From Pseudomonadota bacterium (GTDB lineage Bacteria > Pseudomonadota > Gammaproteobacteria > Pseudomonadales > Pseudohongiellaceae): a stretch of 64,000 bases of DNA. Of this stretch, positions 42,453-55,536 are shown one piece after another. The notes below the pieces were generated by a model. It saw only the letters and a list, made by a program, of their open reading frames with translations, was not told the origin of the DNA and ran no database searches. The translations under genes and the position numbers were made by a program. Location of the stretch: NCBI GenBank assembly GCA_027623555.1, contig JAQBSZ010000013.1:39892-103891 (forward strand), read 5' to 3'. Each line of letters begins with the position of its first letter. Position 1 is the first letter of the stretch.

Positions 42453-43394
42453 ATGTCTGAACGAATCCCACTAAGCAGCCCCATTCGCTATGACAATCCT
42501 GGGACCTTGCCGAAACCGGGAGCGATTGGACGAATAGTAAGGTTTTCCATGGGCCTATTGTGCCTCTGGGTTACCTGGGAGCTTGCAACTAACTCTTCGG
42601 AAATGGATTTGATAAATCCATCCTGGTGGTTTTTGCTGGGAATTGCATTACTGCTGGTAACCTACGTAGTCAACATCGGCTTCGGTCTTTCAGTTGGTAC
42701 CTGGCCACGCAACCTGTCCATCGCTCTCATAGCCACTTCCGCTATCGCTGCCCACCTCATCGGCGGCAGTTTTTTAGGGACTCCTCTGTGGTTGGCAGGA
42801 ACGTTCTGGATGGTCTATATCTATGGACATCTGGGAGTGTCGTTTTTGGTGAGTACGATCATCGCGACACCGGGTTGTGAAATGCGCGCTCTTCCTCATC
42901 TACTGGGGTTGGCCAGTGGCCATAAGGTGGCCGAACATTATTGCCCTGCGTTTATCGACAACATAGACAAGTGGGAACACGCACGAAACGCCGGTATCGA
43001 TGTAGATGAACGATACTCTGCAGAGGGTCCGGGTGCTAAAGATCTCTTACGAAACCCGGGGCGAATGCTGGTGATTTACGGAATCCCGTTCGCGGCAATT
43101 CAATTTGCCGGGAACTTTGGTGGATTCACTATCGCAACCATGGTTCCTGCTGTGTCCCTGCTGGCAATATCGCTGGTGTGTTTTATCAATATATTTCGAT
43201 GTCGTAGAGTGCACTGCTATTTTCTTGGGCCATGGCTGCTAGTAGCGGGCGTTGTCCTGGCGCTTTACAGCTTTCGACTCATCAACTTCGGTCCCAGCAC
43301 CTGGTCGTTAGTTGTCAACATCGCACTGGTTGGCGGTGTGTGCATTTCCATGCACGTTGAGATGGCATGGGGAAGGTATTTTCCGAATAAGTGA
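42453..43394 (+). CDS. Polytopic membrane protein of the MerR regulon
   Basis: 313 residues with about eight hydrophobic segments. The first block GRIVRFSMGLLCLWVTWEL resembles DUF2892-type starts. A hydrophilic loop (about residues 160-195, with KVAEHYCPAFIDNIDKWEH) divides two membrane halves. The segment FRCRRVHCYFLGPWLL has paired Cys/His at a membrane edge, which could bind a soft metal. Its stop is 8 nt from that of the convergent GDCCVxC gene. The MerR-type promoter upstream ties it to that locus. Transport of a metal or thiol species is inference. Confidence 0.6.
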   Translation: MSERIPLSSPIRYDNPGTLPKPGAIGRIVRFSMGLLCLWVTWELATNSSEMDLINPSWWFLLGIALLLVTYVVNIGFGLSVGTWPRNLSIALIATSAIAAHLIGGSFLGTPLWLAGTFWMVYIYGHLGVSFLVSTIIATPGCEMRALPHLLGLASGHKVAEHYCPAFIDNIDKWEHARNAGIDVDERYSAEGPGAKDLLRNPGRMLVIYGIPFAAIQFAGNFGGFTIATMVPAVSLLAISLVCFINIFRCRRVHCYFLGPWLLVAGVVLALYSFRLINFGPSTWSLVVNIALVGGVCISMHVEMAWGRYFPNK

Positions 43395-43720: not shown

Positions 43721-44131
43721 ATGAACACTAATATCAAATCAATTTCGATTGGAATTTTGTCCGCCAAAACTGGAGTTCATATCGAGACGATTCGCTACTA
43801 TGAACGTGAACATATTCTGCCGGAACCAGTGCGCACTGAGAGCGGCAGGCGGATCTATAACAATGAAGACATTCGGCGGCTGAACTTCATACACAAGTGC
43901 AGGAACCTGGGATTTTCGCTGAAAGAAATTTCCAGTCTGCTCAGCCTGGTAGACAACGGCAACTATACCTGCAAACAAGTCCATGAGATTACCTGTCTTC
44001 ACGCAGAAGAAGTCAAAGAGAAAATCGCTGATCTGAAGAGGATGGAGCAGGTGCTTACAGAAATGGCAGATCAGTGCGGGAAGGGAAATGTGCCGGATTG
44101 CCCGATTCTCGACAGCTTATTTGACGACTAA
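43721..44131 (+). CDS. MerR-family soft-metal-responsive regulator
   Basis: 136 residues. N-terminal winged HTH: IGILSAKTGVHIETIRYYEREHILP, GRRIYNNEDIRRLNFIHKCRNLGFSLKEI. The C-terminal part has Cys84, Cys119 and Cys127 (YTCKQVH, QCGKGNVPDCP), close in spacing to the Hg(II)-binding Cys82/117/126 of MerR from Tn501. An extra C-x3-H-like ITCLH follows. It likely activates the three promoters with CTGTA-N5-TACRGG in this locus. Its 3' end overlaps that of the convergent HMA-thioredoxin gene by 15 bp. Hg(II) is the best guess for inducer; other thiophilic ions are possible. Confidence 0.82.
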   Translation: MNTNIKSISIGILSAKTGVHIETIRYYEREHILPEPVRTESGRRIYNNEDIRRLNFIHKCRNLGFSLKEISSLLSLVDNGNYTCKQVHEITCLHAEEVKEKIADLKRMEQVLTEMADQCGKGNVPDCPILDSLFDD

Positions 44132-44821
44132 TCTTTGTAACTTCAGCGCCAGATCGTCCGCTTCGACTAATCCGACAGACCGGTACACTTCTTCTCCAGC
44201 GGCGTTCAGAATCAATAGTGTCGGCATGCCTACCACGTTATAAAAAGCGGCCGCCTCCTCATAAAGGTCAGTGTCTACGTTTAATACAACATAGCGCTCG
44301 AGTGCGGACAGAACTTGTGGACTTTCGAGCGTGCGCGACTTCAGTACCTTGCAGGCTGCACACCATTCGGCATAAAAATCGATGAATACGAAACTGTCAT
44401 TACTTTTAGCAAGAGCTAAAGCCGAGAACACGGGTTCTGGAACAGAGGCACTCTTGTTATCGGGCGAGACTGTTGGTGGCTTCTCTGCGATGCCTGGGCT
44501 ATAGCCAAGGTCAAAGATAGCCGCATACATAGCATCCAGTGTTACCTCGGAGGCATCATAACTGAGCGTAAACGCATCTCTTTCGAGGTTTACTTCGATA
44601 TCTTGCTTGTTGATTCCGGCGAGCTCTGACAGAGCCGCTACGACGCTATCCGGTCAGCTCATTCAAGTGACGCCACCCCGGCTCTTCATCATGCCTTCGA
44701 CGAACAGCGTAACCTTGGACAACTCTGCTTCCAACGAGGCGGCTTGCACAGACATCGACAGCACCAGTGCTATCGCCGTCAGTGAAACAATATTTGCAAA
44801 CTTGGATAATCGCCTGGTCAT
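44117..44821 (-). CDS. Periplasmic HMA domain (U-x-x-U) fused to thioredoxin domain, candidate double-Sec selenoprotein
   Basis: One frame from ATG 44821 to TAA 44117 with two in-frame TGA (44665-44663 and 44656-44654). Read as Sec it gives 234 residues: signal peptide (NIVSLTAIALVLSMSVQA); heavy-metal-associated domain with KVTLFVEGMM, then GGVT-U-MS-U-PDSVVAAL where HMA proteins have TCxxCP, followed by IEVNLERDAFTLSYDASEVT; and a thioredoxin domain with FIDFYAEWCAACK (Cys154/157) and VGMPTLLIL. U53 and U56 take the place of both metal-binding Cys. A hairpin follows. A MerR-type promoter lies upstream. The ORF visible after the TGAs alone would lack the signal and metal site. Role inferred: capture and reductive handling of a soft metal such as Hg(II). 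Confidence 0.78.
44616..44656 (-). promoter_or_regulatory. SECIS-like hairpin after the two TGA codons
   Basis: After the second TGA, CCGG (44653-44650) can pair with CCGG (44619-44616). Inside, GGCTCT-GTC-AGAGCT forms a 6-bp stem with one G-U pair and a G-starting loop, about 23 nt past TGA2 and 32 nt past TGA1, both within the range of bacterial SECIS elements. One hairpin could serve both codons. Alternative pairings exist, so this is weaker than the hairpin at 5624-5665. Confidence 0.5.
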
Positions 44822-44904: not shown

Positions 44905-44935
44905 ATTCTAGAACCTGTACCTGCTACAGAAGCAA
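44905..44935 (-). promoter_or_regulatory. MerR-type promoter P2 for the HMA-thioredoxin gene
   Basis: On the minus strand: TTGCTT (44935-44930), a 19-bp spacer starting CTGTAGCAGGTACAGG, then TAGAAT (44910-44905). Layout and operator match P1. The ATG lies about 75-80 nt downstream of the expected start. The rest of 44822-45095 holds only the palindromic element at 45003. Confidence 0.72.
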
Positions 44936-45095: not shown

Positions 45096-48000
45096 TCAGA
45101 TTTGTATTTCCCTTCGAAGCTGCCAGTTTTGCCAAACAAGATACACCGCCGGTACTACCAGCAATGTGAGCACTAAAGTGCTAATCATTCCACCTATCAT
45201 CGGCGCAGCAATTCTCTGCATGACTTCCGAGCCAGTTCCATGACCGTACATGATCGGCAAAAGGCCGGCAGTAATAGCCGCCATCGTCATGACGATGGGC
45301 CGCAAGCGCTGCAGTGCGCCTTGGTTCACCGCCTGCCTCAGTCCTTCCCGGGATACGGAACGGACAAGCCTCGCCTGCTCAAGATACTCGTCTCTGTATT
45401 GATTGAGATACACCAACATGATCACACCAATCTCAACAGCGACTCCGGCAAGCGCAATCAGGCCAACGGCTACTGCCACCGATAGATCGAAATCCAGATA
45501 CCAAAGTAACCAGCTGCTACCTGCAATGGACATTGGCAGGGTGACTAAGACTATGACTACTTCACCCACCCGGTTGAATGCGAAATACAGCAACAGGGTA
45601 ATAATAACCAGAGTCAGTGGTACAACTATCTTCAATCTTTCTATGGCACGCTGCATATACTCATACTGACCTGACCAGGATGTTGTATAGCCTGCTGGCA
45701 AATCCAGATTCTCGCTTATATATTCCTGCGCTGATGCTACATAACTACCAACATCTATATCTCCAAGATCAACATACACCCAACCTGTTGGCCTGGCATT
45801 CTCACTTTTTATCATCGGTGGCCCGTCTTCGATTTCAATCCGGGCGATTTCACCTAGCGGGATGCGGGCGCCCTGAGAGGTAATGACGGGCAGGGTACGA
45901 ATGCTATCCAGTGAGTCACGTACATGCCTTGGGTAGCGCAGGTTAATCGGAAATCTTTCCAATCCTTCGATAGTTTCTGAGACGTTCATGCCGCCAATTG
46001 CCGAACTTACAATAGCCTGGACATCATCAATATTCAGTCCCAGTCTTGCCGATTTTAGTCGATCGATATCGACTACCACGTAGCGACCACCGAATACTCG
46101 CTCGGCATACACACTTGCCGTTCCTGGAAAATCACTTAGCAAGTTTTCGATCTCGCCTCCCAGGGATTGTATCGTTGGCAAATCGGGTCCACCGATCTTT
46201 ATTCCTACCGGTGTCTTTATTCCTGTGGCCAACATGTCAATACGCGTCTTGATGGGCATCACCCATACATTGGTAACCCCAGGCAATTGCACGGTTCGTT
46301 GTATCTCTTCCCTGATCGAGTCAATGGTCATGCCGTCTCGCCACTGGGATTCAGGTTTAAAATGAATCAATGTCTCTATCATTGTTAACGGCGCAGGGTC
46401 CGTAGCCGTTTCAGCACGGCCTATCTTCCCGAATACTCGATCTACTTCCGGAACGGACTTGATAAGCCGATCTGTTTGTTGAAGTAACTGGGTCGCTTCT
46501 CCAATTGGCAGTCCGGGGCGCATGGTTGGCATATACATCCAGTCCCCTTCATCCAGATGCGGCATGAATTCAGTGCCGAGCCTGGACAATGGCCAGAGTG
46601 CCGAAGTCATTACCAGCATACTCAGAACGATGACTAACCAGGGCATTCTGGTCACCAGACGAATCACCGGGCCGTAACAAACAGACAACAATCGATTCAG
46701 CGGGTTTCGCTGCTCTGCAACGATTCGTCCTCTTATCAAATAACCCATTAGAACTGGCACAAGCGTGATTGAAAGCAGGGCTGCAGCTGCCATGGCCCAG
46801 GTTTTGGTAAATGCCAGCGGAGAAAATAACCTGCCTTCCTGTGCTTCAAGACTGAAAACTGGCAAGAAACTCAGGGTTATTATCAATAAGGAAAAAAATA
46901 ATGGAGGGCCTACCTGCGCGGACGACTTCGCTATTATCTGCCAGCGCTCTGCACTATCAACATCGGCTTTCTTCTCCAGGTGCTTGTGAACATTTTCTAT
47001 CATCACGATTGCGCCATCTACCATCGCGCCAATGGCGATGGCGATACCACCCAGGGACATGATGTTCGCGTTGAGCCCCTGGTAGCGGATAATCAACAAG
47101 GCTGCAAAAATGCCCAAAGGCAACATCGTGATAATTACCATCGACGAGCGAAAGTGAAGCAGAAACAACAGACAAATTGCACCCACGACAATAAATTCTT
47201 CCACCAGTTTGCTGTAGAGATTTTCCACGGCACTATTAATCAGTTCTGATCGATCATAAGTGGTGACTACTTCTACGCCTGCTGGAAGTCCGCCTGCCAA
47301 CTCATCGAGCTTGTTCCTGACCGCTTCGATAGTAGCTAGTGCGTTCTCACCGCTGCGCATTACCACGACACCACCGACAACTTCTCCTTCTCCATTGAGG
47401 TCGGCTATGCCTCGGCGAAGCTGTGGTCCCAATTGAATTTCCGCAATGTCACCGAGCAATACTGGCGTGCCCTGTTCATTAATCTTGAGAGGAATCTGGC
47501 CAAGCTCTGCAATGCTCTGAATATATCCGGTTGCCCGCACCATGAACTCGGTCTCGGCCATTTCGATGACTGAGCCACCCACTTCGCGGTTGCCTTTTTG
47601 AATAGCGTCTCTCACCTGTGTCAGAGTCAGGTTCAAGGCGCTCAATCTGTCTGGCTCTACGATGACCTGATACTGTTTTACCATGCCGCCGATGCTCGCT
47701 ACTTCCGAGACACCAGGTACGGTCTGCAATTCAAATTTCAAAAACCAGTCCTGTATTGCACGCAGTTCACTGATGTCGTGCCTGCCTGACCGGTCAACCA
47801 GCGCATATTCGTATATCCACCCCACGCCCGTTGCATCCGGCCCCAGCGCCGGAGTTACAGTGGCCGGCAGTGCTGCACTCACTTGATTGAGATATTCCAG
47901 AACACGACTGCGCGCCCAATACTGATCAGTACCATCCTCAAAGATAATATAGACATAGGAATCGCCGAAGAATGAATACCCGCGCACCGTTGCAGCGCCT

Positions 48001-48230
48001 GGTACCGAGAGCATGGCAGTGGTAAGAGGATATGTAACCTGGTCCTCAACAACTTGTGGCGCCTGCCCGGGAAAAGCAGTGCGGATGATGACTTGAACAT
48101 CTGACAGGTCTGGTATTGCATCCACAGGCATGGAACGAATGTTTCGTATTCCGGCTACAGCGAGCAGTAATGCGGCAAGCAGAATTAATCCACGCTTCTC
48201 GATAGATTTTTGAATTATCAGCGCTATCAT
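45096..48230 (-). CDS. cusA: Cu(I)/Ag(I) efflux RND pump CusA
   Basis: 1044 residues, the heavy-metal RND length. Twelve membrane helices in two halves; VDAIPDLSDVQVIIRT near the N-terminus, GGIAIAIGAMVDGAIVMIENVHKH in helix 4 and MPHLDEGDWMYMPTMRPG in the porter domain. It lacks the D-F-G-x3-D of Zn/Co pumps and has Met-rich segments, fitting monovalent copper/silver. Start overlaps the cusB stop as ATGA. A proton-driven pump in a tripartite CusCBA complex. Confidence 0.9.
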   Translation of the reverse strand: MIALIIQKSIEKRGLILLAALLLAVAGIRNIRSMPVDAIPDLSDVQVIIRTAFPGQAPQVVEDQVTYPLTTAMLSVPGAATVRGYSFFGDSYVYIIFEDGTDQYWARSRVLEYLNQVSAALPATVTPALGPDATGVGWIYEYALVDRSGRHDISELRAIQDWFLKFELQTVPGVSEVASIGGMVKQYQVIVEPDRLSALNLTLTQVRDAIQKGNREVGGSVIEMAETEFMVRATGYIQSIAELGQIPLKINEQGTPVLLGDIAEIQLGPQLRRGIADLNGEGEVVGGVVVMRSGENALATIEAVRNKLDELAGGLPAGVEVVTTYDRSELINSAVENLYSKLVEEFIVVGAICLLFLLHFRSSMVIITMLPLGIFAALLIIRYQGLNANIMSLGGIAIAIGAMVDGAIVMIENVHKHLEKKADVDSAERWQIIAKSSAQVGPPLFFSLLIITLSFLPVFSLEAQEGRLFSPLAFTKTWAMAAAALLSITLVPVLMGYLIRGRIVAEQRNPLNRLLSVCYGPVIRLVTRMPWLVIVLSMLVMTSALWPLSRLGTEFMPHLDEGDWMYMPTMRPGLPIGEATQLLQQTDRLIKSVPEVDRVFGKIGRAETATDPAPLTMIETLIHFKPESQWRDGMTIDSIREEIQRTVQLPGVTNVWVMPIKTRIDMLATGIKTPVGIKIGGPDLPTIQSLGGEIENLLSDFPGTASVYAERVFGGRYVVVDIDRLKSARLGLNIDDVQAIVSSAIGGMNVSETIEGLERFPINLRYPRHVRDSLDSIRTLPVITSQGARIPLGEIARIEIEDGPPMIKSENARPTGWVYVDLGDIDVGSYVASAQEYISENLDLPAGYTTSWSGQYEYMQRAIERLKIVVPLTLVIITLLLYFAFNRVGEVVIVLVTLPMSIAGSSWLLWYLDFDLSVAVAVGLIALAGVAVEIGVIMLVYLNQYRDEYLEQARLVRSVSREGLRQAVNQGALQRLRPIVMTMAAITAGLLPIMYGHGTGSEVMQRIAAPMIGGMISTLVLTLLVVPAVYLVWQNWQLRREIQI

Positions 48231-49768
48231 TGCGGTTCGCCTTGAGCCCGTATGCTGCTTAACCGATACATACCTTCAGGCGTAGTGGAAAATTCAAACA
48301 TCACGCTGTCACCTACCGCAAACGTACTGATATCCAGCTCCGACGGAATCTGGAAGCCCATGACCATCGCCGGCCAGCCCAGCGCAGCGACAGGCTGGTG
48401 TGAGATAGTCATGGTCTCTCCAGTAGCTATCTGCGTAATGACGCCACTGGTTGAATAGACCTCAGCTTCATCAGTGGTCGCACTTGTCAGGGTTGGCATG
48501 TTCATGGGCGCATCACTATTCATAACCATTGCCGGCTGAGTTGGAGAATCCATTTCTGCATTCGCCGTTAATCTCGCGAACGCCTGTTCGCCATAGGCTT
48601 CGGAATCAAGCAGGAACTGACCGGAAGTCACGACTAAGTCTCCCGCGCTTAGCCCGCTAAGGATTTCAATTCGGGAACCACTGCCTACACCGACCTGGAC
48701 AATTTGCGGTCTGAACCGACCATCGCCCAATGACAGAATTACCCGATCACCCAGGCCTGCTCTGATTACGGCTTCACGTGGCACCGTCAGTACGCTCAAC
48801 TTTGGTATCCCATCGATCTCGACGTTGGCAAACATATTGGGCCTTAGTCTCTGCTGCGCATTGTCAATCACAATGCGCAAGCGCAGGCTCCGCGTCGTGG
48901 GATCAAGCTCAGGGTATAAGTAGGAAATTTCACTGGACCATGTTTCACCAGGGAAGGCTGCAAAGGAGATTTGTACAGGCAGCCCTGGCTCAATCCAGCC
49001 CGCCATCACCTCGAATACTTCCGTCTCAATCCAGACCTTCTCAAGCGATGCCAGGGTAGCCAGAGTAGTGGAAGGCTCAACATAGTTGCCCTTTCTCACA
49101 CCAATGTGAGTCACTATTGCGTCTCGATCAGCCTGAAACACCAGGCGATTAGTCACCTCCCGTGACCGGTCGAGTTCATTGATTTGCATCGGCGTAAAAC
49201 CCAGTGCAGCCAGGCGATCTCTGGCTAGGGACGCTAAACTGCTGTTGTTCGATTCGATAGCAGTGAGAAATTCCCGCTGCACACTCACCAGATCGGGAGC
49301 AAAGAGTGCATAAACAGGCTCTCCCGCACGTACCCGATCACCGACACTCGCTAAATAAAACTCTTCCAGCCAACCTTTTACCCTGGTGTGTAATATTTGA
49401 ATGCTCGATTCGTCCCAGTTGGTATACCCCACGGCGCGGATACGAGGCGAGAAATCTTCCAATAGCACCGGCGCGGTTCTTACCCCCAGATTTTGCTGAA
49501 CCGAAGCAGAAACACTAATAGTGTCTCCGCCTGCAAATACGGGAATCAATGGCATGCCCATGGGCGACAATCCTGGCTCGTCTCTTCTGTAGTTCGCATC
49601 CATTGGTGCGACCCAATACAACGGCTGTAGTGGACTCTGATCTTGAGTACTTGCAGCCATGTTCATGGGCATGTCCACAGCCATGTCGGCAGGCCTGGAT
49701 TGCCAATAGTAGATTGCGGTAACAACACCAGTTAGCAATATCAAGCTCAAGGCTATTCTAATTTTCAT
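48227..49768 (-). CDS. cusB: CusB membrane-fusion protein with C-terminal CusF-like domain
   Basis: 513 residues from ATG 49768, with AGGAG 7 nt upstream. N-terminal membrane anchor, Met-rich stretch (MAVDMPMNMA), heavy-metal-binding motif YWVAPMDANYRRDEPGLSPMGMPL, then the adaptor barrel and hairpin (VQREFLTAIESN). The last ~70 residues (SGVITQIATGETMTISHQP, ALGWPAMVMGF) are a CusF domain with its His, Trp and two Met copper ligands. CusF is usually a separate chaperone; here it is fused. The start overlaps the cusC stop. Confidence 0.9.
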   Translation of the reverse strand: MKIRIALSLILLTGVVTAIYYWQSRPADMAVDMPMNMAASTQDQSPLQPLYWVAPMDANYRRDEPGLSPMGMPLIPVFAGGDTISVSASVQQNLGVRTAPVLLEDFSPRIRAVGYTNWDESSIQILHTRVKGWLEEFYLASVGDRVRAGEPVYALFAPDLVSVQREFLTAIESNNSSLASLARDRLAALGFTPMQINELDRSREVTNRLVFQADRDAIVTHIGVRKGNYVEPSTTLATLASLEKVWIETEVFEVMAGWIEPGLPVQISFAAFPGETWSSEISYLYPELDPTTRSLRLRIVIDNAQQRLRPNMFANVEIDGIPKLSVLTVPREAVIRAGLGDRVILSLGDGRFRPQIVQVGVGSGSRIEILSGLSAGDLVVTSGQFLLDSEAYGEQAFARLTANAEMDSPTQPAMVMNSDAPMNMPTLTSATTDEAEVYSTSGVITQIATGETMTISHQPVAALGWPAMVMGFQIPSELDISTFAVGDSVMFEFSTTPEGMYRLSSIRAQGEPQ

Positions 49769-51084
49769 TCGGATACTCCTTGCGGCCACAATTGGCCACC
49801 ACTTAATCTGTTAATTTCAGAGATCGTAATAAATTGTTCTGCATAAGAACTGGATAGCAATAATTCCATATCCAGTAATTGAGCTTGTGCTTCTATCAAT
49901 GAGTAGAAATTTCCACCACCGCTTTGATAGTTAGCCAGAGTTGCATTTACGTTTTGTCGCAAATTGGAGACCAGTTCTGCCTCTATCAGCTGAACTCCAT
50001 GAAGGGTTTGATCAAAACGAGATAGTTGTGACTCGAGTTCGGACATCAGTTGACTGCGCTTATTGACGATATCCAAACGCTTGCTGCTGTACTCATACTC
50101 TGCAGCTGCTTTTCGAGATGTGCGTTTGCCAAAATCCAGAGGTATGTTCAGACTTACACCTACCTGGAGTCGTTGACTGCTCGCGTCCCAAAGTTCGTTG
50201 TAGCCCAGGTTAAATTGCACATCGGGATAGTCCTCTTTCTCAGTCAATCGTAGATTGAGTCGCGCCACATTGGTTTCGGCTTCCAGACTCAACAAACCAG
50301 GATGAGATTCCAGCAGCCATCGTTCCAGCACTTCTCGCCCCGGGAGTTCAGGAATTACTGGCTCACCGAGCGGTGGCCCGAGAACTGTTGTCGGCTCTTG
50401 ATTCAATAAATGATTGATCTGTGCCTGCAATCGCCTGCGTTCCTGGATCAGTACTATCTGCTGATGTTGCAGTTCCACTTCTCGCGCCTGCACCTGAAGC
50501 ACATCTTGCTGAAGCCCGATGCCATTTGCATACTGGGTTTCAGCCACGACCCGCAATTCAGCGGACAATCTCATATGCTCTGCATTAGCGGCCAGTGCTT
50601 CATTGACATACCACCACTGCGCCCACAGCAAGCGGCTCTGATTCACCAGATTCAGGCGCAATTGTTCCACTGAAAATTGGGCTACTTCAGCAGTAGCCTG
50701 CATCTGGTCTGTCCTGAGCGAACGCTTGCCAGGCCAGGGAACGGATTGACTCAATTGAAATGTCTGACGAATCCCCAGGGCGTTGCCAAAATTACTGGGG
50801 ATGTGATCGCCAATCGAAAAAGGGGCGACGGAATAAGTTACACGCGGATCTTCCAGAGCGCCTGCGCTTGAGATCAGCTGCTTCTTCGCCTTCGCGCGTA
50901 ATTGCTCAGCGGTTAATCCAACATTCAGCGAGACTACTTCGTTGACGAGCCAGTCCACACCCAAGGCTACTCCAGGATTTTCTGCAGCTACTGCCGTAGT
51001 TTCATAAACAGAAATCCATAAAAATGAGCCTGTGATGAAGACTAGATGAATCTTGCGAAACCATGCTCGATTAATAGAACACAC
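49765..51084 (-). CDS. cusC: Outer-membrane efflux channel CusC (TolC family)
   Basis: 439 residues from GTG 51084, chosen because TAGGAG lies 7 nt upstream; an open frame continues to 51141. Signal peptide (HLVFITGSFLWISVYETTAVAAE), then coiled-coil TolC repeats (LRLNLVNQSRLLWAQWWYVNEAL, ESQLSRFDQTLHGVQLIEAELV). It forms the exit duct of the CusCBA pump. It is the first of three overlapping genes (cusC-cusB-cusA), so one transcript is expected. Confidence 0.88.
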   Translation of the reverse strand: MCSINRAWFRKIHLVFITGSFLWISVYETTAVAAENPGVALGVDWLVNEVVSLNVGLTAEQLRAKAKKQLISSAGALEDPRVTYSVAPFSIGDHIPSNFGNALGIRQTFQLSQSVPWPGKRSLRTDQMQATAEVAQFSVEQLRLNLVNQSRLLWAQWWYVNEALAANAEHMRLSAELRVVAETQYANGIGLQQDVLQVQAREVELQHQQIVLIQERRRLQAQINHLLNQEPTTVLGPPLGEPVIPELPGREVLERWLLESHPGLLSLEAETNVARLNLRLTEKEDYPDVQFNLGYNELWDASSQRLQVGVSLNIPLDFGKRTSRKAAAEYEYSSKRLDIVNKRSQLMSELESQLSRFDQTLHGVQLIEAELVSNLRQNVNATLANYQSGGGNFYSLIEAQAQLLDMELLLSSSYAEQFITISEINRLSGGQLWPQGVSE

Positions 51085-51164
51085 AGTGACACTCCTAAAA
51101 ACAAACAGAACAATGCCATCTCCAAAACTGGAAATGACCATAGATGTCAGTATTAGAGAGGCGT

Positions 51165-52410: not shown

Positions 52411-55400
52411 TTATTGAGCCACGCGTGCTTCCTGCCAGGCTTCACGAATATGTACCAGGCGGTATAAGGCCGGTAGCACGAATAAGGTCAGGACAGTCGA
52501 GGAAATAATGCCGCCTATAACCACAGTGGCAAGAGGGCGCTGTACCTCTGAGCCGATGCCTGTGTTAAGAGCCATAGGCACAAAACCCAATGACGCTACC
52601 AGAGCGGTCATCAGCACAGGGCGCAGGCGAGAAGAGGCACCCTCCATGATTGCCGAGTGCAATCCCGCGCCTTGCTCGTGCAAGCGGCGGATAAAAGTCA
52701 GCATCACCAGACCATTCAGCACAGCGATTCCCGAAAGCGCGATAAATCCTATGCCAGCTGAAATTGAAAAAGGAATATCTCGAAGCACCAGCGCGAGAAC
52801 GCCGCCGGTGAGAGCCAGAGGCACGCCGGTGAAGATAATCAGTGAGTCACGCAAAGATCCCAGCGCCATAACTAACAAGCCCAGAATTAGAACGAGTGTT
52901 ACCGGCACTACAATTGTTAATCGCTGCGAAGCAGATTGTAATTGTTCATAGGTACCACCGTACTCCACCCAGTAACCTGCAGGGATCTCTACGCTAGCTT
53001 CCACAGCGCGCTGCACGTCTTCGACAAATGAGCCGAGATCGCGGCCACGCACGTTAGCTGACACCACCACTCGTCGCTTACCGTTCTCTCGATAAATCTG
53101 GTTATAACCGCTTTCTACCTGAATGTTCACCAACTCGCCTAAGGGCACCACTTCGCCCTGTGAAGTCTGGATCGGAAGTTCGGTGAAAGTATCGGGATTC
53201 TCTCGCTGTTTGGCAGCCTGCCGCACTATGATGTCTGAGCGCCGATCGCCTTCATAATAGTTGCCTGCTTTTACGCCGCCCAGGGCGACAGCCACGGTAT
53301 CCTGCACCTCCTGTAGACTGATACCAAATCGAGCAATGACGTCGCGCTTGGGAGACATTGTAAGCACAGGTAAGCCAGTTGCTTGCTCAACCGCAACATC
53401 GGCCGCACCCGGAACGCTGGCTATGGCGCTTTCAAGTTGATCACCGAGATTGATGAGTTGATCGAAGTCATCTCCGAATACCTTCACTGCCAGTTCGGTC
53501 CTTACGCCAGCCAAGAGTTCATTAAATCGCATCTGTATGGGCTGTAGGAATTCGTAACGGTTGCCTGGTACTGGTGTAACAATGGCTTCCAGATCGGCGA
53601 CGACTTGTTGTTTGGGTTTTAGCGGATCTGGCCATTGGTCCCGTGGTTTAAGGATAATAAAAGTATCGGCAATGCTGGGTGGCATAGGATCAGTGGCGAC
53701 TTCGGCAGAGCCGATTTTGGAAAACACCCGCTCCACTTCGGGCAAGCGCCGTACTTCGGTCTCCAATAACAGTTGTAATTGCACTGCCTGCTGCAGTGAA
53801 GTACCGGGAATGCGCAGCGCGTGCATTGCGATATCGCCTTCGTCCAGATTGGGCACGAATTCTGATCCCAGTCGGGTGAACAAGCTGTAACACCAGACTA
53901 CTAAGCCAAAGGCCAGCAGAATAACCAGCCAGTGCAGTCGCAGGGAAATACTCAACATGGGCTGATAGATATAGCGAGCCCCGGCGATAATTGGATTGGC
54001 GCGCTCGCGCACCGGTTTGCGGAAGAGGATTGCTACGCAAGCCGGTACAAAAGTGAGTGATAACAACATGCCGCTAAGGAGCGCGATAATGACGGTTATC
54101 GCCATAGGGTGAAACATTTTGCCTTCGACACCGGTAAGACTGAGGATTGGGATGTAAACCGCCGTAATAATAAACACGCCGAACAGGGCAGGACGCATTA
54201 CTTCTTGAGTTGCACTGGATACAAGCGCAAGACGTTCTTTCAGGTGCAGAGTTCTGGTTTGGGATTCCTGGCCCAAGCGGCGCAGGCAGTTTTCGACAAT
54301 AATTACTGTGCCATCGACAATTAAACCGAAATCCAGCGCGCCCAGACTCATCAAGTTTGCAGAGACTCGAGTCTGGACCATGCCAGTAATCGTCATCAGC
54401 ATGGCGATTGGAATGACGGCGGCAGTGAGCAGTGCAGCTCGAATATTGCCCAACAAAAGGAACAGCACCGCAATAACAAGCAAGGCACCTTCCACAAGAT
54501 TTGTTTGCACTGTTCTTAGAGTTTGGTCAACTAAAGTGGTGCGATTGTAGACAGGCGTCGCAGTTACGCCCGCCGGGAGGCTCGCTTGTATTTCATCAAG
54601 CGCCAAAGCAATATTGCGCGCCACGGCACGACTGTTTTCTCCGATCAACATGAAGACCGTGCTCATTACTACTTCGTGCCCGTCCTGGGTAGCCGCACCA
54701 CTGCGCATTGCTTCACCCAGTGTAAGTTTCGCAACATCATTTACGCGAATGGGAACACTGGCGTATTCTCCGACGACAATATCGCCAAGATCTTGCAGTT
54801 CCTGCGCCTGGCCTTCCATACGAATTAACCACTGAGCGCCACTGTATTCTATAAAACCGGTGCCTCGATTCTCATTATTTGTTTCTAGTGCGCGGATCAA
54901 GTCATTCTGGGTCAGGTTATAGGAAAGCAGCTTTATTGCGTCGAACTCCACCTGAATCTCATGCTTGTATCCACCAACCGGATTCACTTCTACTACACCA
55001 GGTACACGCAGCAGCTGTGGCCGGATTATCCAGTCGTGCACAACGCGAAGGTCCATCGGTGTGATTTCAGAGCCGTGCGTATTGCTGGCACCAGGTTCGG
55101 CATCGACAGTAAACATGAATATTTCACCGAGACCGGTGGCAATAGGTCCGAGTGCGGGATCCATACCCGGTGGCAGTTGTCCACGAACGGAGGCTATCCG
55201 TTCACCTACCTGCTGGCGAGCGAAGTAGATATCAGTGCCTTCTTCAAAAATAATCGTCACTTGAGAAAGTCCATAGCGCGACACCGAACGCGTACTGCTC
55301 ATGCGCGGTATTCCAGCCATAGCAGTTTCCATAGGGAAACTGATTCTTTGCTCAACTTCCAGTGGGGTATAGCCTGGCGCGGCTGTGTTGATGGCAACCT

Positions 55401-55536
55401 GAACATTGGTTACGTCGGGCACTGCATCGATGGGCAGTCGGGTGAAATTCCACGCGCCTAATGCCATCAAGGCGAGCACAAGAACGATTACTAGGCCACG
55501 ACGGGCGAGGGAGGTGTTTACAATAGCTGCAAGCAT
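52411..55536 (-). CDS. czcA: Heavy-metal RND efflux pump CzcA
   Basis: 1041 residues with the heavy-metal RND layout. In helix 4, GALDFGLIVDGTVIIVEN contains the D-F-G-x3-D motif of Zn/Co/Cd (HME1-like) pumps, in contrast to cusA in this window. N-terminus LPIDAVPDVTNVQVAINT and porter segment FVPNLDEGDIAMHALRIPGT are also typical. It likely exports divalent Zn/Co/Cd/Ni from the periplasm or cytoplasm with CzcB and CzcC. Confidence 0.9.
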   Translation of the reverse strand: MLAAIVNTSLARRGLVIVLVLALMALGAWNFTRLPIDAVPDVTNVQVAINTAAPGYTPLEVEQRISFPMETAMAGIPRMSSTRSVSRYGLSQVTIIFEEGTDIYFARQQVGERIASVRGQLPPGMDPALGPIATGLGEIFMFTVDAEPGASNTHGSEITPMDLRVVHDWIIRPQLLRVPGVVEVNPVGGYKHEIQVEFDAIKLLSYNLTQNDLIRALETNNENRGTGFIEYSGAQWLIRMEGQAQELQDLGDIVVGEYASVPIRVNDVAKLTLGEAMRSGAATQDGHEVVMSTVFMLIGENSRAVARNIALALDEIQASLPAGVTATPVYNRTTLVDQTLRTVQTNLVEGALLVIAVLFLLLGNIRAALLTAAVIPIAMLMTITGMVQTRVSANLMSLGALDFGLIVDGTVIIVENCLRRLGQESQTRTLHLKERLALVSSATQEVMRPALFGVFIITAVYIPILSLTGVEGKMFHPMAITVIIALLSGMLLSLTFVPACVAILFRKPVRERANPIIAGARYIYQPMLSISLRLHWLVILLAFGLVVWCYSLFTRLGSEFVPNLDEGDIAMHALRIPGTSLQQAVQLQLLLETEVRRLPEVERVFSKIGSAEVATDPMPPSIADTFIILKPRDQWPDPLKPKQQVVADLEAIVTPVPGNRYEFLQPIQMRFNELLAGVRTELAVKVFGDDFDQLINLGDQLESAIASVPGAADVAVEQATGLPVLTMSPKRDVIARFGISLQEVQDTVAVALGGVKAGNYYEGDRRSDIIVRQAAKQRENPDTFTELPIQTSQGEVVPLGELVNIQVESGYNQIYRENGKRRVVVSANVRGRDLGSFVEDVQRAVEASVEIPAGYWVEYGGTYEQLQSASQRLTIVVPVTLVLILGLLVMALGSLRDSLIIFTGVPLALTGGVLALVLRDIPFSISAGIGFIALSGIAVLNGLVMLTFIRRLHEQGAGLHSAIMEGASSRLRPVLMTALVASLGFVPMALNTGIGSEVQRPLATVVIGGIISSTVLTLFVLPALYRLVHIREAWQEARVAQ

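Follow-up and report, generated by a model that had tools for sequence, protein, structure and literature searches.

Organization of the locus

The window, by which we mean the whole 64,000-nt stretch of DNA analyzed (GCA_027623555.1, contig JAQBSZ010000013.1, positions 39,892-103,891), carries a predicted selenoprotein gene between a MerR-family regulator gene and a cluster of CusCBA-type efflux genes. The genes and sequence elements identified are listed here by coordinate.

42453-43394, plus strand: membrane-like protein F2, 313 aa; counterparts in relatives have about 180 aa
43403..43633, minus strand: small Cys protein of the GDCCVxC type, 76 aa, motif GDCCVFC (tblastn; family name taken from the copy at locus L016, NF041374)
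43721..44131, plus strand: MerR-family regulator with three conserved Cys, convergent with the selenoprotein gene and overlapping its 3' end by 15 bases (Pfam, NCBIfam, structure match, alignment)
44117..44821, minus strand: predicted selenoprotein of 234 residues, with signal peptide, U-x-x-U HMA domain and DsbD-gamma-like thioredoxin domain (translation, Pfam, NCBIfam, AlphaFold2 model, structure search)
44619..44638, minus strand: SECIS-like hairpin, loop GUC, the loop about 23 bases past the second TGA (pairing in the loci, recoding test, alignment shuffles)
44654..44656, minus strand: second in-frame TGA, codon 56, U56 (translation; TGA in 23/23 intact loci)
44663..44665, minus strand: first in-frame TGA, codon 53, U53 (translation; TGA in 23/23 intact loci)
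44905..44935, minus strand: MerR-type promoter, TTGCTT, 19-bp spacer with a CTGTA/TACAG dyad, TAGAAT (pattern search, genome-wide scan)
45096..51141, minus strand: upstream CusCBA-type efflux genes, namely a CusA-type RND protein, CusB with a CusF domain, and OEP (Pfam, NCBIfam)
52411-55536, minus strand: second RND pump gene, upstream of the CusCBA-type cluster (Pfam, ACR_tran 1012.6 bits)

With TGA translated as selenocysteine (Sec, U), the region 44117-44821 forms a single frame of 234 residues plus a stop, and its internal stops are exactly U53 and U56. This agrees with the sequence-only reading, an earlier note on this DNA, which had described a frame from the ATG at 44821 to 44117 broken only by TGA. 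The two codons occupy the position of the CxxCP motif of HMA proteins. When Cys was substituted at both sites, Pfam recognized an HMA domain (PF00403, residues 50-107, 28.1 bits against a cut-off of 24.8) followed by a thioredoxin domain (PF00085, residues 140-228, 52.8 bits against 23.5) whose active site is CAAC, residues 154-157; the earlier assignment of the TGAs to the metal-binding Cys pair, with a CxxC thioredoxin domain behind, was thereby borne out. Judged by eye, the protein starts with what resembles a Sec-type signal peptide whose last residues are VQA-A; a signal peptide had likewise been proposed there. A PF00403 profile search of the gene's own genome (E up to 0.001) gave no matches; the two TGAs presumably depress the score.

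The frame around the site reads VEGM-MKSRGGVT-UxxUP, with 8 residues between GM and the first U. The Cys-type MerP encoded at the related locus L006 (VEKMTCAMC) has one residue (T) in that interval, so that the metal loop of the window protein has about 7 extra residues. An AlphaFold2 model of the window protein (mean pLDDT 75.2, pTM 0.51) shows the strand-helix-strand-strand-helix-strand order of HMA domains, followed by a thioredoxin fold. Confidence is low in loop 44-55 (pLDDT below 50), and the model is therefore uninformative on contact between the HMA site and the thioredoxin site.

Two neighboring genes recur among the 24 loci compared below. F2 lies near 9 of them; it has no match in Pfam or NCBIfam, and is possibly an unnamed partner of the U-x-x-U gene. 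The GDCCVxC-type protein is likewise found near 9/24 loci, its core without an in-frame TGA and its motif partly lost at L024. The L016 copy scores 99.8 bits, against a cut-off of 40, with NF041374, a family labeled '(seleno)protein'.

Conservation of the twin TGA codons

The 24 loci comprise 21 loci in 17 assemblies identified by a scan of genome contigs, two loci in genome G279 identified by an order-wide search, and the window. The contig scan used two patterns, FVEGMMK, which lies off the TGA codons, and one with Trp written there; the loci it yielded (L006-L026) were read without conditioning on TGA. Both codons are TGA, in frame, in 23 of the 24 loci, the window included. The exception, L026 (9001-9271), has one extra base ahead of the first TGA, and both the promoter and the regulator gene are missing, so this copy looks decayed. 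The 24 loci are not fully independent, since one assembly carries near-identical copies of the gene on two of its contigs (L018 and L019) and three further assemblies have two loci each. Beside L019 and L014 a transposase-like gene was recognized by eye.

Differences at the first, second and third codon positions amount to 0.17/0.10/0.51 before the TGAs, 0.33/0.20/0.62 in the remaining HMA part and 0.39/0.27/0.64 in the thioredoxin part. Such third-position-biased variation on both sides of the TGAs speaks against a dead gene. The genome uses TGA as a normal stop codon: the neighboring CusA gene ends with it. The comparison confirms that the twin TGAs are not an artefact.

We searched the protein databases with P0001 as query (117 proteins) and with a nine-row profile (94 proteins, the 7999 candidates with the most shared words being scored). 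All 27 homologues that extend across the site have W/W and none has Cys; these are protein entries, not DNA. W/W is what would be expected of a gene caller using a code with TGA as Trp, and TGA probably lies behind these entries. The downstream part of the protein has a database entry of its own, P0003 (137 aa), and many comparable truncated proteins are recorded as well. Among the matches listed in two genome searches, the rows that reach the HMA part all have two TGAs (three in the order-wide search and one in the second, which had a cut-off of 1e-22), and the remaining rows start at query residue 105 or beyond. A distant Cys form could escape, given the 1e-22 cut-off and the assessment of the order-wide search among the matches listed. 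The sequence-only reading had anticipated homologues with either Cys or TGA at residues 53 and 56; TGA was found at every intact DNA locus, and no Cys form of the U-x-x-U protein was found in the two protein-database searches. Cys homologues serve as a criterion in selenoprotein searches without being a requirement, and the window family had none. A published search (PMC1088965) required a candidate to have two or more Cys homologues; a family without them would lie beyond the reach of that search. The gene thereby exposes a blind spot; the databases, for their part, record it either with W/W or as a shortened thioredoxin. None of the 77 plasmid records that gave a match covers at least 80% of the protein.

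A SECIS-like hairpin after the second UGA

The bacterial SECIS, as described in PMC1088965, is a stem-loop soon after the UGA with a G in a small apical loop. In the window gene a single hairpin follows the two UGAs, which are nine bases apart. Its five inner pairs can form in all 23 sequences, closing a GUC loop that is GUU in the G279 pair, and the G of the small apical loop is present in 23/23. In 22 sequences three outer pairs can form, in either of two registers, one of them with a bulged U; L062 has two of the three. After identical rows were merged to 20, 88.1% of cells were paired at the hairpin register, as against 27.5-45.0% when the register was slid by 1 to 3. Neither this paired percentage nor the covariation score was reached by any of 500 shuffles of the alignment. 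Two-side pair changes (matched by 85/500 shuffles) and pair types (470/500) were not unusual.

Synonymous codon conservation among 21 genes is 0.69 at residues 50-67 compared with 0.43 elsewhere (p=2.7e-5), and AGC55, CTG64 and TCA65 are invariant. The local hairpin also exceeds random synonymous recodings of its own residues in stability: of 500 recodings, 9 were as stable as that of the window, and the range was 0 to 54/500, with L062 weakest.

RNA folding alone was rejected as evidence for a SECIS. The window RNA has another minimum-energy fold, one that lacks the hairpin and whose stability is no better than that of shuffles (z -0.59). Five 50-base stretches gave z values of -0.59 (window), -1.86, -0.77, -2.22 and -0.45, and the hairpin is part of the minimum-energy fold in three of the five, the window not among them.

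Selenocysteine genes and distribution among hosts

The window genome encodes selA, selB, selD and tRNA-Sec (ARAGORN: tRNA-SeC, anticodon TCA), the machinery for which the sequence-only reading had suggested a search; its presence, like the TGA pairs of the relatives, supports that reading. In 13 of the 18 further carrier assemblies selA is over the cut-off, or in 14 at E up to 0.001, and two of the five without an over-cut-off selA have selB over its cut-off. With the window genome included, selA or selB is over the cut-off in 16 of 19 carrier assemblies. The other three have neither over the cut-off; many carriers are incomplete metagenome bins. As background, selA is over the cut-off in 56/390 genomes of the order, and the two U-x-x-U gene carriers in that 390-genome sample both have it. 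Host co-occurrence with Sec genes is only supportive. Sec very probably occupies both positions of the window protein.

The order sample includes seven more members of the genus; none gave a comparable match among the matches listed, and the gene therefore appears to be sporadic. The selD match of the window genome (G000 C12, 18936-19853) falls within an open frame of 760 aa, which suggests that SelD may be joined to a further domain.

MerR-type promoter and regulator

A promoter of the form TTG-N19-TANNNT with a CTGTA/TACAG-type dyad lies upstream of the gene in 22/24 loci, L018 and L026 being the two in which it was not found. The match is perfect in 14 loci, with one mismatch in 6 and three in 2. 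Because this pattern was derived from the loci themselves, a whole-genome scan provides an independent test: in the 4.5 Mb genome, with up to 2 mismatches allowed, the sole match is the window site, located between the U-x-x-U gene and the CusA gene, and the control gave 0.

A MerR-family gene is directly adjacent in 17/24 loci, convergent in 15 and upstream on the same strand in 2 (G279). At L017 such a gene occurs about 2.7 kb further on; none was found at L013, L014, L018, L019 or L026, and the L009 sequence ends too early. Three Cys are kept in 18/18 regulators, in register with the Bacillus MerR structure 4ua1, although this three-Cys pattern is common to other divalent-metal sensors too. 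The window regulator is below the cut-off of every metal-specific NCBIfam model; MerR is highest (TIGR02051, 132.0, cut-off 150.85), with CueR (122.1) and CadR/PbrR (115.5) close. Among solved structures it matches 4ua1 best (113.1 bits), compared with about 60 for CueR. It also keeps a Cys at position 84, where CueR has Ser. The window regulator thus resembles the Hg-type MerR in its fold, its Cys residues and its 19-bp-spacer promoter, and differs in falling under the TIGR02051 cut-off and in the placement of its gene, convergent in 15 loci and same-strand upstream in two.

Metal-related genes near the loci

Sequences similar to MerC were detected by tblastn near 7/24 loci (one match partial, one at 34% identity) and MerT/MerP/MerA near 3/24, so that at least one mer gene (MerC or MerT/P/A) is present within about 9 kb in 8/24; a CusA-like sequence is found near 5/24. 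These are raw counts and lower bounds, because flank lengths differ among loci. For each of four types (MerC, MerT, MerP-type HMA and MerA-type reductase) a single example was confirmed with Pfam. The available flanks of 16/24 loci contain no mer transport or reductase gene, and tblastn found no mer transporter near the window gene. At L006 (10188-12630), MerT-, Cys-type MerP- and MerA-like genes lie directly past the U-x-x-U gene and its MerR gene, so Cys and Sec HMA proteins adjoin there. Any functional link between the window gene and the CusCBA-type genes upstream of it is conjectural.

Relationship to known proteins

A UxxU metal-binding (seleno)protein with two Sec is catalogued as predicted (NF041115) in PMC13188914 and PMC9312934. 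The window protein shares with that family an HMA-like metal site in which both ligands are Sec; it differs in its score, 32.3 bits against a cut-off of 95, and in its fused thioredoxin domain. None of 398 genomes of the phylum has a protein over the NF041115 cut-off, which leaves no example for comparing loop spacing, and the extra pre-site residues of the window protein are counted relative to a Cys MerP. No description of a UxxU HMA-thioredoxin fusion was found in the open-licence literature, judged mostly by its listings. UxxU metal-binding selenoproteins are therefore already known as a class, and what appears to be new here is an HMA-thioredoxin variant far below the NF041115 cut-off.

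MerP (TIGR02052) is a further point of comparison, as a likely periplasmic HMA protein and in view of the mer genes near some loci. Unlike MerP, the window protein has two domains and no Cys form was found in the searches above; it scores 30.2 bits against a cut-off of 92.55. A table of selenoproteins from an ocean metagenome (PMC2398784) has a row 'Mercuric transport protein MerP' with an apparent count of 2.

In the structure search, DsbD C-terminal domains take the first nine places among solved matches, and the best 50 matches listed are all thioredoxin folds, with no match to the HMA part among them. The DsbD C-terminal (gamma) domain (1vrs_D, 2fwf, 1uc7_A) has the same fold as the window thioredoxin domain, at 31-33% identity over about 105 residues, and NF001419 aligns to the protein with its C-terminal part. 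Unlike DsbD, the window protein has neither the membrane domain nor the alpha domain, and an HMA domain is fused instead.

Proposed function and alternatives

We propose that the product is a periplasmic U-x-x-U binder of soft metals under MerR-type control, with its thioredoxin domain as helper; we put the probability of this reading at roughly 0.6. The adjacent MerR-family regulator would sense a soft metal, most likely Hg(II), and in response switch on the 19-bp-spacer promoter. The single hairpin past the second UGA would recruit SelB, and both UGAs would be recoded with host SelA, SelB, SelD and tRNA-Sec. The product would be exported by way of its signal peptide. Metal would be captured by its two selenols, and the CAAC site of the thioredoxin domain would reduce the diselenide formed in the oxidizing periplasm. 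The closeness of this domain to the DsbD C-terminal domain, a periplasmic thioredoxin type, suggests that it would hold the U-x-x-U pair in reduced form. The metal might then be held, or handed to a MerC/MerT-type transporter or an RND pump.

The sequence-only reading had proposed a binder/reductase that would hold Hg(II) or Cu(I) very tightly. To judge by the regulator and the neighbors of the relatives, Cu(I) is a less likely signal than Hg(II) or a different soft divalent metal, despite the CusCBA-type pump upstream in the window. Mercury is the better-supported signal on account of the MerR-type promoter, the regulator and the relatives' mer genes, although as the specific metal we hold it at just under even odds. 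The full form of the proposal is slightly more tentative: a Sec-only, mercury-induced trap in which the periplasmic U-x-x-U binder carries its own thioredoxin as diselenide reductase and answers to a dedicated MerR-type switch, with one promoter in the genome. Copper/silver is the main rival. The protein would then be a selenium version of a copper/silver chaperone, binding Cu(I)/Ag(I) at U-x-x-U and feeding the CusCBA-type pump as a member of the cus cluster, as the CusA-, CusB- (with CusF domain) and OEP-type genes directly upstream, the CusA-like sequences at 5/24 loci and a weak match of CopZ models to the HMA part (42.2 bits, cut-off 91) would suggest. However, the gene has its own promoter, sited between it and CusA; the regulator scores higher with MerR than with CueR (both under cut-off), is closer to 4ua1 than to CueR among solved structures and has Cys 84; and mer genes occur near 8/24 loci. 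We regard the chaperone role as unlikely.

A DsbD-gamma-like thioredoxin domain could also serve a protein that is primarily a redox enzyme, in which U-x-x-U would be a catalytic diselenide/diselenol pair reducing oxidized or metal-damaged periplasmic targets, and not a store of metal. The location of the site within an HMA domain and the metal-sensing type of the promoter and regulator make this unlikely as the primary role; metal binding and redox function could coexist in one protein. That the TGAs are real stops or errors, through gene decay, sequencing error, reading of TGA as Trp, or a thioredoxin restarted downstream, seems very improbable. The separate 137-aa database protein, the W/W entries and the decay seen in L026 would fit such an explanation. 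Against it stand both TGAs in frame in 23/24 loci with third-position-biased change on either side, the use of TGA to terminate CusA, the Sec genes in the genome, and the loss of the signal peptide that a downstream restart would entail.

Mercury toxicity is largely an attack on selenols and thiols. If the proposed soft-metal binder does act on mercury, Hg-Se chemistry would be deliberately employed as a detoxification step: two selenols on a metal-binding fold, likely under MerR-type induction, would make selenium the captor of mercury, not its victim. The closely spaced UGA pair ahead of one hairpin would in addition offer a compact test case for double recoding.
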